From: Bacteroidales bacterium | GTDB taxonomy: Bacteria > Bacteroidota > Bacteroidia > Bacteroidales > GCA-2711565 | Direction: 5' to 3' | Assembly (NCBI GenBank): GCA_029938505.1 | Contig: JAOZUV010000094.1 | Span: 1 to 7,461, forward strand | DNA: 7,461 bases | Shown here: one piece after another, positions 3,580 to 7,461 of the stretch | How the letters are laid out: each line of letters begins with the position of its first letter | Numbering within the stretch: position 1 is the stretch's first letter | The notes under the pieces: generated by a model | The model's database searches: none | What the model was told of the DNA's origin: nothing | The model's input: only the letters and a program-made list of their open reading frames with translations | Program-made: the position numbers and the translations under genes

Positions 3580-6036
3580 ATGGACGATTTTAACAATATA
3601 TATCAAGAAGAAAATATTGATATTAAGGCAATTATTGCAAAGTTTTTAAGCTATTGGCATTTATTTGTTTTAACCATTACTATCGCTTTAATCATTGCTT
3701 TTCTATTCAATAAATACACACTCCCAATTTATCAGGTTTCAACAACCGTATTGTTAGAAGATAACAAAAGTCTTGACGCACAAGGATTGGTTGGACTTGC
3801 CATATTGGGGGGGCAAAAAAAGAATTTAGTAAATGAAATTGCTATATTAAAATCTGAATCACTTACATACAGAACGCTTAGACAATTGGATTTTTTTGTA
3901 TCTTATTTTCAAACAGAGGGTTTTATCACAAAGGAGCTATATCAAAATTCGCCCATCATTATTGATTTTGATGAAAATCACCCCCAATTAGTACACTCAA
4001 ATTTTAATATCAAAATTTTATCTGATACTGAATATAAAATACATATTGAAGAAGATGAAAAATCATCCTATCTGTTTTCGACTGATAAAATCATGCAGTC
4101 TCAACAAAATATTTCTTATTCAGAGATTCATAAATTTGGAGAATTAATCATTCATCCCCTTTTTAAATTTAAAATATCCCTTAATTCAAATTTTACATTT
4201 TCTGAAAACAAGAAAAATGACCTCTATTTTAATTTCAATACATTAAGATATTTATTTGGCCAATTCAGAAATCTTAATATTGGAGCCATTAACACTAGAT
4301 CATCCATTTTATCTTTAGTATTAAAAGGGGAAAATATTCAAAAATCTATAAATTTTTTAAATCAATTAACCCATGAATACATTGAACAAGGGTTAGAAAT
4401 TAAAAATGAAGTAGCTGTTAATACTATCAATTTTATTAATGCAGAATTGTATAGTATCTCTGATTCACTAACCATTACAGAAAAAGATTTACAGGATTTC
4501 CAAATAACGAATCAAACAATGAATGTTGATTCTCAGGCAGAACAGGTATTTATTTATATAAGGCAACTAGAAATTGAAAAAGCAGATTTGTTAATTAAAT
4601 TGAAATATTATAAAAGTATTAAAGAGTATTTATTAGAGAATAATGCTGTTGAGGATATTGTTGTTCTTTCATCCATTGGAATTGAAGATCCCTTTTTAAA
4701 TAATTTAGTTAAAGAACTAACGCAGCTTTTTAATACGCGCAGTGAACTATTGTATAGCTCAACGGAAAAAAGTCCACAAGTATTAAGTCTTACTCGCCAA
4801 ATCATAAACAGTAAGAATGCATTAATTGAAAATATTAATAATATTGCAACAACTTCAAATATTGCAATTGATAATCTCAATAAACAAATTGATGATCTCT
4901 CACAAAGAGTTGATTATTTACCCAAAGCTCAAAGACAATTATTTAATATTGAGCGAAAATTTAAGTTAAATGATGCTATTTATACTAACCTGCTTCAAAA
5001 ACTTTTTGAGGCCCAAATAAAAAAAGCATCGAACCGACCAGATAATACTATTATTGATATGGCAAGTAGTTCAAAAGCTATCTCAATTTATCCTAAAAAG
5101 AGATCTAACTTTATAATTGCATTCCTTATTGGATTATTAATCCCCATAGTATATGTATTAGGAAAGGATTTTTTTAATAATAAAATCATTGAACGAAAAG
5201 ATGTTGAAAACACAACCAAGCTTCCAATTGTAGGACACATATTGCATAATAATAAAGACACAGAACTTGTTGTTGCCAAAACGCCAAAATCTTCTATCAC
5301 CGAATCATTCAGATCCATCCGTACAAATATTCAATATTTGGCAAAAGGGAAAGAGAAGCAAATTATTATGGTGACATCAGATATGGCTAGTGCTGGAAAA
5401 ACCTTTATAGCCATGAATCTGGGGTCAATTTTTGCTCAATACGATAAAAAAGCAATATTATTAGGTTTCGATCTTAGAAAACCAAAAATTTATCAGGATT
5501 TTAAACTCTCTAACTCCATCGGTTTAAGTACGTATTATATCAATAAAAATTCAGTTGAAGAGATTATTCAAAAATCCACACTTGATAATCTAGATATTAT
5601 CATGGCGGGTCCAGTTCCTCCTAATCCAGCAGAATTAATTGCCTCTACAAAAACCAAAGAACTTTTTGAAGAATTACAAAAAACATATGACTACATTATT
5701 ATTGATACTCCTCCTCTGGGATTAGTAACAGATGCATTTCTTCTAATGGAGCATGCTAATGTAAACTTATTTATAGTTAGACAACACCATACAGTTAAAA
5801 AAGTATTTGAATCCATTATTAAAGATATTGAACAAAAAGAATTTCCAAATTTTAGCATTTTAATTAATGATGTTAAATTACAAAAAGGTTCTTATGGATA
5901 CGGCTATGGATATGGTTATGGCTATGGATACGGATATGGTTACGGCCAAGGTTATGGCTACGGTCAGGGCTATTATACAGATGATAGTGAAAATGAAAAG
6001 AAATCCTTACTGAAAAGATTTTTTTCCAGATCATAA
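3580..6036 (+). CDS. Wzc-like polysaccharide co-polymerase with BY-kinase domain
   Basis: Inner-membrane chain-length regulator and tyrosine autokinase controlling surface-polysaccharide polymerisation and export. The 818-residue protein has a Wzz-type N-terminus with a first membrane helix (about 27-45), then a long periplasmic region with helical, probably coiled-coil parts (about 260-480). A GNVR-type segment (LPKAQRQLFNIERKF, 447-461) precedes the second membrane helix (511-528). The cytoplasmic kinase domain has Walker A at 603-608 (ASAGKT, Lys607), Walker A' LLGFDLRKP (627-635, Asp631; the first Asp of the usual DxD is Gly629) and Walker B YIIIDTPP (705-712, Asp709). The C-terminus is a tyrosine cluster: nine Tyr-Gly pairs (772-789), then QG, YG, YG, QG, YY, for 13 tyrosines, followed by a basic end. 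Such clusters are the autophosphorylation sites of this family. It pairs with the Wza-like protein 31 bases upstream. G7 and A7 runs occur at 3807-3821. Confidence 0.93.
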   Translation: MDDFNNIYQEENIDIKAIIAKFLSYWHLFVLTITIALIIAFLFNKYTLPIYQVSTTVLLEDNKSLDAQGLVGLAILGGQKKNLVNEIAILKSESLTYRTLRQLDFFVSYFQTEGFITKELYQNSPIIIDFDENHPQLVHSNFNIKILSDTEYKIHIEEDEKSSYLFSTDKIMQSQQNISYSEIHKFGELIIHPLFKFKISLNSNFTFSENKKNDLYFNFNTLRYLFGQFRNLNIGAINTRSSILSLVLKGENIQKSINFLNQLTHEYIEQGLEIKNEVAVNTINFINAELYSISDSLTITEKDLQDFQITNQTMNVDSQAEQVFIYIRQLEIEKADLLIKLKYYKSIKEYLLENNAVEDIVVLSSIGIEDPFLNNLVKELTQLFNTRSELLYSSTEKSPQVLSLTRQIINSKNALIENINNIATTSNIAIDNLNKQIDDLSQRVDYLPKAQRQLFNIERKFKLNDAIYTNLLQKLFEAQIKKASNRPDNTIIDMASSSKAISIYPKKRSNFIIAFLIGLLIPIVYVLGKDFFNNKIIERKDVENTTKLPIVGHILHNNKDTELVVAKTPKSSITESFRSIRTNIQYLAKGKEKQIIMVTSDMASAGKTFIAMNLGSIFAQYDKKAILLGFDLRKPKIYQDFKLSNSIGLSTYYINKNSVEEIIQKSTLDNLDIIMAGPVPPNPAELIASTKTKELFEELQKTYDYIIIDTPPLGLVTDAFLLMEHANVNLFIVRQHHTVKKVFESIIKDIEQKEFPNFSILINDVKLQKGSYGYGYGYGYGYGYGYGYGQGYGYGQGYYTDDSENEKKSLLKRFFSRS
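3807..3821 (+). repeat. G7-C-A7 homopolymer tract in the wzc-like gene
   Basis: Seven G (3807-3813), one C and seven A (3815-3821) encode Leu-Gly-Gly-Gln-Lys-Lys at residues 76-81. The frame is intact here. A run of seven G is conspicuous in such AT-rich DNA, and length change by slippage would truncate the protein after about 80 residues. Confidence 0.6.
5893..5976 (+). repeat. Tyr-Gly tandem repeat tract
   Basis: The 84 bases encode residues 772-799 of the Wzc-like protein. The basic unit is six bases, TAY-GGN, repeated nine times without interruption, then mixed with CAA/CAG-GGN units. Third positions vary (tat/tac, gga/ggc/ggt) and longer patterns such as TATGGATAYGG recur, so DNA-level expansion or contraction in multiples of six bases is plausible and would keep the frame. 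Confidence 0.85.
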
Positions 6037-6160: not shown

Positions 6161-6694
6161 ATGCTAGGCACATTAATAACTTCTAAAACGCGCATTAAGT
6201 TATTGCTCAAATTCTTTTTAAATAGCAATTCTAATGCTTATTTAAGAAATCTTGAATCAGAATTTGGGGAATCTACCAATGCCATCCGAGTAGAACTAAT
6301 ACGTTTCGAAAAAGCAGGGCTATTAAAATCCTGGTATAAAGGAAATAAAAAATTATTTAGCGCAAACACTGATCATCCACTCTTCTCAGCTATTCACAAT
6401 TTAATTTTAAAACAAATTGGGTTCGATAAAATCATCGATACTATTATTGAAAAATTGGGAAAGGTTAAGAGTGTTTTTGTTGTTGGTGATTTTGCAAATG
6501 GTATCGATACAAACATTATTGATTTAATCTTTATAGGAGATCACATTAATCAGAATTATTTGGCTGAATTGGTCATAAAAGCGGAAAAGCTAATAAAACG
6601 TCGAATTCGTTATTTAGTTTATTCTGTTGAAGATTTTGAAAATTATAAAAAAGAATATAAGGGTGTAGATCCACTATTATTGTGGAAAGAGTAA
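6161..6694 (+). CDS. Winged-helix protein with degenerate nucleotidyltransferase-like domain
   Basis: Probable transcriptional regulator; the exact role is not known. From the ATG at 6161 the protein has 177 residues. Residues 7-70 look like an ArsR/MarR-type winged helix (RIKLLLKFFLN, AYLRNLESEFGESTNAIRVELIRFEKAGLLKSW, then a wing at YKGNKKLFSAN). Residues 85-177 resemble a small MNT/KNTase-fold domain (VKSVFVVGDFANG, then IIDLIFIGD). The usual active-site GSxAxG and DxD are degraded: Gly109 is followed by Asp instead of Ser, and only Asp121 of the acidic pair remains. Catalysis is therefore doubtful and a binding or sensing role is more likely. An in-frame TTG at 6155 adds two residues but lies in the palindrome's right arm. 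The gene begins 124 bases after the wzc-like gene and has its own candidate promoter. A regulatory role in the polysaccharide locus is inferred from position and from the operator-like palindrome. Confidence 0.75.
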   Translation: MLGTLITSKTRIKLLLKFFLNSNSNAYLRNLESEFGESTNAIRVELIRFEKAGLLKSWYKGNKKLFSANTDHPLFSAIHNLILKQIGFDKIIDTIIEKLGKVKSVFVVGDFANGIDTNIIDLIFIGDHINQNYLAELVIKAEKLIKRRIRYLVYSVEDFENYKKEYKGVDPLLLWKE

Positions 6695-6696
6695 TT

Positions 6697-6717
6697 GAGT
6701 GAACAGTCAACAGTGAA
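6697..6717 (+). repeat. Left inverted-repeat arm
   Basis: Begins GAGTGAACAGTCAAC and ends GTGAA; complementary to 7175-7195 except at 6712. It begins two bases after the stop codon of the winged-helix gene. Confidence 0.85.
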
Positions 6718-6734
6718 AAAAGCTGTTGACTGTT
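6702..6734 (+). terminator. 12-bp hairpin after the winged-helix gene (possible terminator)
   Basis: AACAGTCAACAG (6702-6713) pairs perfectly with CTGTTGACTGTT (6723-6734) around a nine-base A-rich loop, starting seven bases after the stop codon. No U-tract follows, so classical intrinsic termination is uncertain. The left arm is also part of the inverted repeat that flanks the next gene, so the hairpin may belong to that repeat unit. Confidence 0.4.
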
Positions 6735-6797
6735 ATAACTAATGAATATTAGTAATTAGCCCAAATGGGACTGAGGAGGCGAAGCTATGTCCTGAAG

Positions 6798-6815
6798 ACA
6801 GTGAATAGTGAACAG
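6798..6815 (+). repeat. Degenerate internal repeat copy
   Basis: ACAGTGAATAGTGAACAG resembles the flanking arms (shared GTGAA and AGTGAACAG) in the same direction as the left arm. It ends ten bases before the four-helix-bundle ATG. Confidence 0.55.
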
Positions 6816-6825
6816 ATAAAAGAAA

Positions 6826-7170
6826 ATGGATCATAAAGAATTGGAAGTATGGAAAAAATCAATACCACTCGTTAAAGAAATTTATGAGTTGACACAAAAT
6901 TTTCCAGATTCAGAAAAATATGGTCTGGTCTCACAGATGAGACGATGTGCTGTGTCAATACCATCAAACATTGCTGAAGGATCCGGTCGAAATTCTGATA
7001 AAGAATTTATTCAATTTTTATATTACGCTCTTGGATCAATTGCCGAACTAGAAACCCAATTAATAATATCCAAAGAATTAAAATACTTATCATCAGATAC
7101 AATAACAACTAAACTCATTGAAGTTAGAAAAATATTAACCGGCTTAATCAAATACCTAAAGACAAAATGA
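6826..7170 (+). CDS. Four-helix-bundle protein (23S rRNA intervening-sequence protein family)
   Basis: Small 114-residue protein of the IVS-encoded 'S23' family, whose relatives include proteins coded inside intervening sequences of 23S rRNA and the Avd accessory proteins of diversity-generating retroelements. Family hallmarks are visible: ELEVWKKS (5-12), FPDSEKYGL (26-34), the strongly conserved QMRRCAVSIPSNIAEGSGR (37-55) and FIQFLYYALGSIAELETQL (61-79). The whole chain is helical and lacks catalytic motifs. The many basic residues fit nucleic-acid binding, as proposed for the family, but the molecular function is unknown. The family is often found as a single gene in Bacteroidota. The upstream sequence AGATAAAAGAAA offers only a purine-rich ribosome binding site. 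The gene lies between inverted repeats, 131 bases after the winged-helix gene and 36 bases before the UpxY-like gene, on the same strand. No sign of a reverse transcriptase or template repeat, so an Avd role is not supported here. Confidence 0.9.
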   Translation: MDHKELEVWKKSIPLVKEIYELTQNFPDSEKYGLVSQMRRCAVSIPSNIAEGSGRNSDKEFIQFLYYALGSIAELETQLIISKELKYLSSDTITTKLIEVRKILTGLIKYLKTK

Positions 7171-7174
7171 GCCC

Positions 7175-7205
7175 TTCACAGTTGACTGTTCACTCTTCAC
7201 TCAAT
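7175..7205 (-). repeat. Right inverted-repeat arm with duplicated end
   Basis: The minus strand carries the same core as 6697-6717 at 7195-7175. Outside it, ATTGAGTGAA is repeated (7205-7196), so relative to the left arm this copy has seven extra bases (GAGTGAA). It ends one base before the ATG of the UpxY-like gene at 7207. Confidence 0.8.
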
Positions 7206-7206
7206 C

Positions 7207-7461
7207 ATGAAAAATTCAGAAAAACAAAACATAAAACCAAATACTAGCAAACTTCTTTACTTTTGGTACGCCCTTTACACCCGTTCTCGTCAGGAAAAAA
7301 AGGTTTATCAGGAACTAACTAACAAAAATATTGATGCCTATTTACCTCTTGAAATAAAGATAAAGCAATGGAGTGACCGTAAAAAAAAGGTTGAAGAACC
7401 TATGATACGTTCATATGTATTTGTAAAAAGTAGTGAAAAAGAATATTACGATATTTTAAAT
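7207..7461 (+). CDS. UpxY/NusG-like transcription antiterminator, N-terminal part (cut by window edge)
   Basis: NusG paralogue of the UpxY/RfaH type, which rides on RNA polymerase and prevents premature termination within long polysaccharide operons. The first 85 codons are visible and the frame is open to the window end. After a polar lead of about 18 residues comes the NGN domain: YFWYALYTRSRQEKKVYQEL (18-37) with the usual WY-x-LYTR-x-R-x-E-K pattern. IDAYLPLEIKIKQWSDRKKKVEEPMIRSYVFVK follows, where the YLP and the SYVFV strand are typical of NGN folds. The KOW domain and the residues that would separate UpxY from general NusG are outside the window. The lead and the capsule context favour UpxY over housekeeping NusG. 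No Shine-Dalgarno sequence and no nearby TAnnTTTG are seen, so it may be read through from upstream. Confidence 0.88.
   Translation, partial: MKNSEKQNIKPNTSKLLYFWYALYTRSRQEKKVYQELTNKNIDAYLPLEIKIKQWSDRKKKVEEPMIRSYVFVKSSEKEYYDILN

Follow-up and report, generated by a model that had tools for sequence, protein, structure and literature searches.

A probable IVS-like cassette: a four-helix-bundle gene between complementary heptamer arrays in a Bacteroidales polysaccharide locus, with block turnover of such units in relatives

Why does a small gene of the 23S rRNA IVP family, framed by complementary repeats, lie between two genes of a polysaccharide locus, and do the gene and its repeats form one element? 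The window (the whole stretch of DNA analysed, 7,461 nt from a Bacteroidales bacterium) encodes, in order, an export protein, a tyrosine autokinase, a 179-aa regulator, the small four-helix-bundle (4HB) gene and the start of upxY, and a 512-bp unit occupies the whole gap from the stop of the regulator (6694) to the ATG of upxY (7207). An earlier note, made from the letters alone, had placed the small gene in the 23S rRNA IVS-protein family and read the unit as mobile or IVS-like. The family assignment is borne out by matches to PF05635 and TIGR02436 at E about 1e-40, above the curated cut-offs of both profiles (138.7 vs 33.8 bits and 137 vs 24 bits, respectively). The upstream regulator, which has no Pfam or NCBIfam match at E 0.001, we take to be a winged-helix regulator. 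No rRNA family matched the window at E ≤ 1, and the sole match of an Rfam scan fell below its gathering score and far away from the 4HB unit. As an aside, a glycine-tyrosine repeat (GYGYGYGY..., about 5880-5975) forms the end of the autokinase; it is coded by a simple-sequence repeat, which could vary in length.

The repeats themselves are as the earlier note described them, a 21-bp inverted repeat with one mismatch, an extra inverted copy and a third, degenerate copy (Table 1). Positions 6697-6717 and 7175-7195 are complementary at 20 of 21 bases, and this is the only pair of at least 20/21 within 1 kb when the whole window is searched; the local score of 19 between the two spacers was reached by none of 5000 dinucleotide shuffles, whose maximum was 16. 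The extra inverted copy proved to be a perfect 12-bp inverse of 6702-6713, and the degenerate copy the inner left arm. By eye, all arm copies in the window belong to one heptamer family of the AGTGAAC type, and the additional copies exist because each arm is an array of 7-nt repeats. Read inverted, the right arm is GAGTGAA-GAGTGAA-CAGTCAA-CTGTGAA, and 6694-6717 also pairs with 7182-7205 (88%), with the register off by one heptamer. The complementary ends are able to close a stem around the 4HB ORF, and the predicted RNA fold of the unit surpasses that of every one of 100 shuffles (z -4.34).

Table 1. Positions of the 4HB unit, its arms and its neighbours in the window.
Feature	Position	Strand	Basis
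Upstream regulator gene, 179 aa	6155..6694	+	ORF
Outer left arm, three heptamers GAGTGAA-CAGTCAA-CAGTGAA	6697..6717		Repeat comparison
Inverted copy of 6702-6713, local 12-bp hairpin with left arm	6723..6734		100% complementary, 9 nt between; RNA fold
Conserved leader motif GACTGAGGAGGCGAAGCTATG	6769..6789	+	In L001 (6620-6640), leader plus likely upxY start codon
Inner left arm, about two heptamers (AGTGAATAGTGAACAG)	6800..6815		Direct copy; pairs with right arm in predicted RNA fold
4HB gene (23S rRNA IVP family), 114 aa	6826..7170	+	ORF, PF05635/TIGR02436 profiles
Right arm, four heptamers, inverse of left arm plus one extra	7172..7205		Period 7, 4.1 copies
upxY (NusG-family antiterminator), 5' part, cut by window end	7207..7461	+	ORF, family profiles

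To find relatives of the locus, the upstream regulator was used in a single scan, which gave 50 loci (from Bacteroidetes, Saprospiraceae, Ignavibacteria and the like), 35 of which also contain a relative of upxY. The earlier note had proposed a search for relatives that lack the unit, and the closest relative found (L001, 73% identity) is such a case: its regulator adjoins upxY with no 4HB gene between, and another, distant 4HB gene lies just upstream of the regulator. In L001 the likely upxY start directly follows GACTGAGGAGGCGAAGCT, whereas in the window the same leader with its ATG stands upstream of the 4HB gene and runs into TCC TGA, and the N-terminus of UpxY differs from that of L001 (all by eye). 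Therefore the unit seems to have split upxY from an older leader and start; from the sequence comparison, it would have entered behind that start, and upxY would now begin elsewhere. The statement in the earlier note that the unit adds nothing to the flanking coding frames accordingly needs revision, an older upxY leader and ATG having apparently been cut off. The order is different again in L008 (upxY, 4HB gene, regulator), where GGTGAAC arrays precede the 4HB gene and their inverse follows it.

The leader motif has the consensus GACTGAnnnGGCGAAGCTrTG. Beyond the window and L001, it was found in L026 (786-806) and, upstream of the regulator, in L027, L030, L031, L035, L036, L037 and L047. A relaxed pattern gave 27 matches in 51 sequences, 18 of which are, on our own reading, the motif or a close variant, and those 18 lie on the operon strand near the regulator, upxY or a 4HB gene. 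We take the motif to resemble the RfaH ops element. The leader motif could be a recruitment site of UpxY. The RfaH ops element is described as forming a hairpin in the non-template strand (PMC5995543).

Is the architecture of the window unit peculiar to this locus? 4HB genes, recognised with a purpose-built profile, were present in 21 of 21 genomes searched, with 1 to 19 per genome. This first sample, drawn from the genomes of the 50 regulator loci, comprised 146 matches, part of which were retrieved, 30 as loci and 80 as further regions; later samples covered relatives of the genome G001, where 25 of 41 genomes matched the window protein, as well as Maribellus together with its kin. Only units whose flanks were long enough were scored, 115 of 119 at first and 152 of 156 with the stricter gap cost given below, and control genes were required to have at least 300 nt on either side. 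The two arms of a unit score at least 20 against each other in 58.3% of the 115 distinct 4HB copies, as opposed to 3.6% when arms of different copies in one genome are paired (n = 938) and 6.2% around other genes (n = 354); among other genes with intergenic space on both sides (n = 152), 9.9% reach this score. In 77 of 109 cases, with 16 expected, an arm paired strictly better with its own partner than with that of any other copy in the genome. Under a stricter gap cost, strong arms flank 71 of 152 4HB genes vs 4 of 444 other genes, one of these four being a GxxExxY gene, and with more Maribellus relatives added the count was 86 of 194. About half of the 4HB genes (81/152) have no strong arms at this cost. 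Thus, complementary arms recur around other 4HB genes, as the architectural part of the IVS-like proposal holds.

The encoded protein is under purifying selection, the median dN/dS being 0.07 over the 33 unsaturated of 56 orthologue pairs (23 were saturated). In-frame stops occur in 9 of the 146 matches; one such copy (L021, 5515-5751) still has a long right array. Among solved structures, one relative was found at E 0.001, XCC0516 (2gsc), which is described as a pentamer of four-helix bundles (PMC4990558). A protein of this kind may bind the arms.

Elsewhere, relatives of the 4HB protein were found in 37 plasmid records, mostly cyanobacterial among those listed, and phage records gave no match to the window protein. 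We scored 15 of the 30 listed plasmid copies (14 cyanobacterial, one from Gemmatimonadota): 8 of the 15 have an own-arm score of at least 18, vs 4.8% of 210 cross pairs, with the gene ends of L375, which has no annotation, set from the protein match, so that its downstream flank may begin inside the gene. One plasmid copy lies antisense between two ribonucleotide reductase genes (an nrd operon). Three others, L364, L366 and L373, are flanked by cas genes on cyanobacterial plasmids, two of them between cas6 and cas4 and one between cas10 and cmr3; L364 and L366 have strong arms, and these arms suggest that they may be cassettes hitchhiking in cas loci. Earlier lists of CRISPR-linked IVP genes may likewise contain hitchhikers.

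Since a GxxExxY gene was among the top control genes, three further small-gene families were scored in 12 genomes. An arm score of at least 20 was reached by 12 of 26 usable GxxExxY loci, 4 of 19 DUF559 loci and 5 of 24 GIY-YIG loci; these were drawn from 30 (of 55 matches), 25 and 30 loci, respectively, after removal of fragments, long proteins, three loci without a frame or with a too-short flank, and one frameless GxxExxY locus. The GxxExxY (TIGR04256) arms are of another type, for example CACGAAG, CGCAAAG and CACAGAT (L267, L270, L278, L279, L288 and others). By eye, several DUF559 and GIY-YIG genes (L296-L320 and L321-L350) stand beside mostly palindromic repeats, and arm pairing in these two families is trivial for that reason. 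These counts hint at a number of small-gene families that sit between repeats, of a type particular to each.

What the arms of 4HB units share is a period and not a sequence. The self-match of both flanks, as measured by autocorrelation, peaks at 7, 14 and 21 and more weakly at 8, 16 and 24, and of the intergenic regions beside a 4HB gene, 163 of 222 contain 7/8-type arrays by Tandem Repeats Finder, as against 78 of 275 elsewhere. The repeat units, mostly 7 or 8 nt, vary by copy (GTTGATA, GCAGTCA, GGAAGAT, AGTTCAA, GGGAGTA and many more). Upstream arms are alike (score of at least 20) in 4-5% of pairs with less than 40% protein identity, in 20% at 50-60%, in 42% at 60-70%, and in 9 of 10 above 70%. 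Arm sequence is therefore private to one copy or a close lineage, while both arms of a copy match each other; the earlier note's question whether other copies have the same arms is answered in the negative, and as private sequences the arms do not qualify as terminal repeats conserved across a mobile family. We also considered whether the repeat period follows protein clade. Period class shows 18 changes on the 4HB tree vs 24.9 when shuffled (1 of 1000 shuffles as low), and a nearest-neighbour test on 94 representatives also finds clustering (p 0.0016); with residual arm similarity taken out, however, p rises to 0.09-0.17, and we do not claim the association. Separately, long 7- or 8-nt arrays occur at distances above 600 nt from the nearest 4HB gene in L007 (3058-3354, 20.6 copies) and L002 (9624-9750, 13.5 copies), perhaps as scars of lost units.

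How, then, do arms of private sequence stay complementary? One answer, which survives better than the other alternatives and which we nevertheless consider doubtful, lies in the transcript: the arms would pair as RNA, RNase III would free the 4HB mRNA from that of the operon, and selection on the RNA stem would maintain the pairing. The fold of the window unit is in keeping with this, as are rRNA IVSs with this gene family, whose complementary ends are cut by RNase III, and the heptamers of the Coxiella element (PMC4990558). Against it, arm mismatches in 88 units show no G-U bias (165 G-U vs 189 A-C, with 474 and 493 expected), and we reject selection for sense-RNA wobble on these numbers. Units are also oriented to their neighbours like other genes, being co-directed with both in 108 of 148 cases vs 314 of 421, and arms are strong even where both neighbours lie on the opposite strand (six of eight such units reach a score of 20; the nrd operon copy is a further instance). 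The suggestion in the earlier note that an RNA stem brings the two flanking genes together gains no support from these orientations and mismatches.

The two arms of a unit mirror each other's variant order, with a mean score of 24.0 in the best register vs 11.9 after a 7-nt shift (106 units; the best register is picked as the maximum and is biased in its own favour), and the best register lies at least 5 above any 7/8-type slide in 48 of the 106 units and equals one within 1 in 24. Six genomes share one site with orthologous 4HB genes; there the arm units differ, and own pairing scores above the average cross pairing in five genomes and ties in the sixth. Across all orthologue groups, own pairing won 173, lost 93 and tied 28 of 294 ordered, non-independent comparisons. 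Co-divergence of orthologous arms is thus fairly clear at the one site and moderate overall. Given the variant order, the orthologue pairing and the lack of wobble bias, we lean towards the arms being copied from each other at the DNA level.

The behaviour of whole units was followed in Maribellus luteus (G016), whose 13 4HB units were compared with the related strain CM-23 (G062; about 89-98% identity in the flanks), all six empty sites described here coming from this one genome pair. Six units are at the same site in both (L053, L080, L128, L129, L132 and L137), L080 and L128 being adjacent near-copies in G016 that both match one CM-23 unit. At one further site CM-23 carries another 4HB gene flanked by different arms (L136 vs L197); over six genomes this site holds two unit types, with 4HB identities of 0.47 to 0.92 in the group. 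The remaining six units are absent from CM-23, arms included, the sites measuring 534 vs 36 nt (L130), 512 vs 30 nt (L131), 506 vs 5 nt (L133), 478 vs 95 nt (L134), 822 vs 19 nt (L135) and 577 vs 24 nt (L138). By eye, heptamer arrays are missing at five of the six empty sites, which argues that the arms belong to the unit; the L134 site has other, unpaired arrays. Several units fill the whole gap between the stop codon of the gene before and the start codon of the gene after. Because other genomes have the unit at L130, L131 and L138, these three are probably losses in CM-23. Thus, a 4HB gene and its two arms are one block that is present, absent or swapped at otherwise collinear intergenic sites, which bears out the turnover part of the cassette proposal.

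These observations bear on the two weaker alternatives. An ordinary, vertically inherited gene beside simple-sequence repeats, with complementarity arising by chance or local inversion, would be in line with the 7/8-type arrays of control intergenic regions and with the over-representation of heptameric repeats in Xanthomonas and Nostoc (PMC4692102); own arms, however, score far above both cross pairs within a genome and other genes, and at empty sites the arms are gone together with the gene, so that we hold this account to be improbable. A classical transposon or MITE, whose terminal inverted repeats a trans-acting transposase would recognise, would account for unit-sized gaps at collinear sites but is very improbable, as copies within a relative's genome mostly have no arm sequence in common (the own versus cross pairings above reject shared ends) and unit lengths vary. 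By eye, no target duplication is visible at the six empty sites, where flanks differ by about 2-10%.

We therefore favour, as a probable though by no means secure reading, that the 512-bp unit is an IVS-like single-gene cassette, composed of a 4HB gene between complementary 7-/8-nt arrays, of a widespread kind that turns over as a block. Copying through a hairpin or template switching during replication would keep the arms complementary at the DNA level, slippage would add or remove heptamers, and a 4HB pentamer might bind or protect the arm hairpin, promoting persistence or spread of the cassette, which the host operon may tolerate because of its position in a gap. In this window, the cassette would have landed between the regulator and upxY and cut upxY from its older leader. 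Of the mobile or IVS-like interpretation given in the earlier note, the recurring architecture and block turnover in relatives stand, and arms shared among copies and an RNA stem uniting the flanking genes do not. Block turnover is what the relatives display, and strict mobility goes further than this: the G016/G062 comparisons revealed no transposition and no site with a proven gain, and the cassette may be actively mobile. A bolder extension, which we regard as unlikely, is that 4HB cassettes are minimal selfish elements, at least in Bacteroidota and Cyanobacteria, whose protein or recruited machinery copies or measures 7-/8-nt units and mirrors them on both sides; the heptamer excess of some genomes would then largely be their footprint, and rRNA IVSs would be members that landed in rRNA.

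The architecture outside rRNA, the block turnover and the constrained protein together make the mobile-element hypothesis for rRNA IVSs testable in harmless laboratory strains, and 4HB cassettes become a possible source of heptameric repeats. They also advise caution, as a 4HB gene that lies in a cas or capsule locus may have hitchhiked there and be no part of that system. The function and origin of rRNA IVSs with an ORF were called unclear after 25 years, a mobile element being among the hypotheses (PMC4990558). In the open-licence PMC literature, so far as its text was available, no link of 4HB genes to heptamer arms was found, which leaves the absence of such a link unproven.

Among known systems, bAvd and Avd of diversity-generating retroelements (DGR) have a related profile, which the window 4HB protein matches below the curated cut-off; an identity as Avd is rejected (Avd equivalog, 25.3 vs a cut-off of 80 bits), and the five proteins of the window that were scanned include no reverse transcriptase. 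The cas-locus IVP genes, counted among CRISPR-Cas-associated functions (PMC3936711), are of the same family and lie between cas genes as do 3 of our 15 plasmid copies. Closest in design are the 23S rRNA IVSs of Leptospira and Coxiella, which resemble the window unit in having a single S23p/IVP-family ORF between complementary ends; the Coxiella element is described with a 28-bp terminal stem and tandem heptameric repeats upstream of the ORF (PMC4990558). They sit in rRNA, whereas the window unit lies between two protein-coding genes, and the Coxiella authors consider S23p expendable (PMC4990558), whereas 4HB orthologues here are under purifying selection. Finally, the heptameric arrays of Xanthomonas and Nostoc, intergenic, sometimes inverted and variable between close relatives (PMC4692102), are like the arms here in being intergenic 7-nt repeats of variable length and sequence; the available text of that study makes no connection to 4HB genes, whereas in the genomes analysed here the arrays flank 4HB genes in inverse complement.
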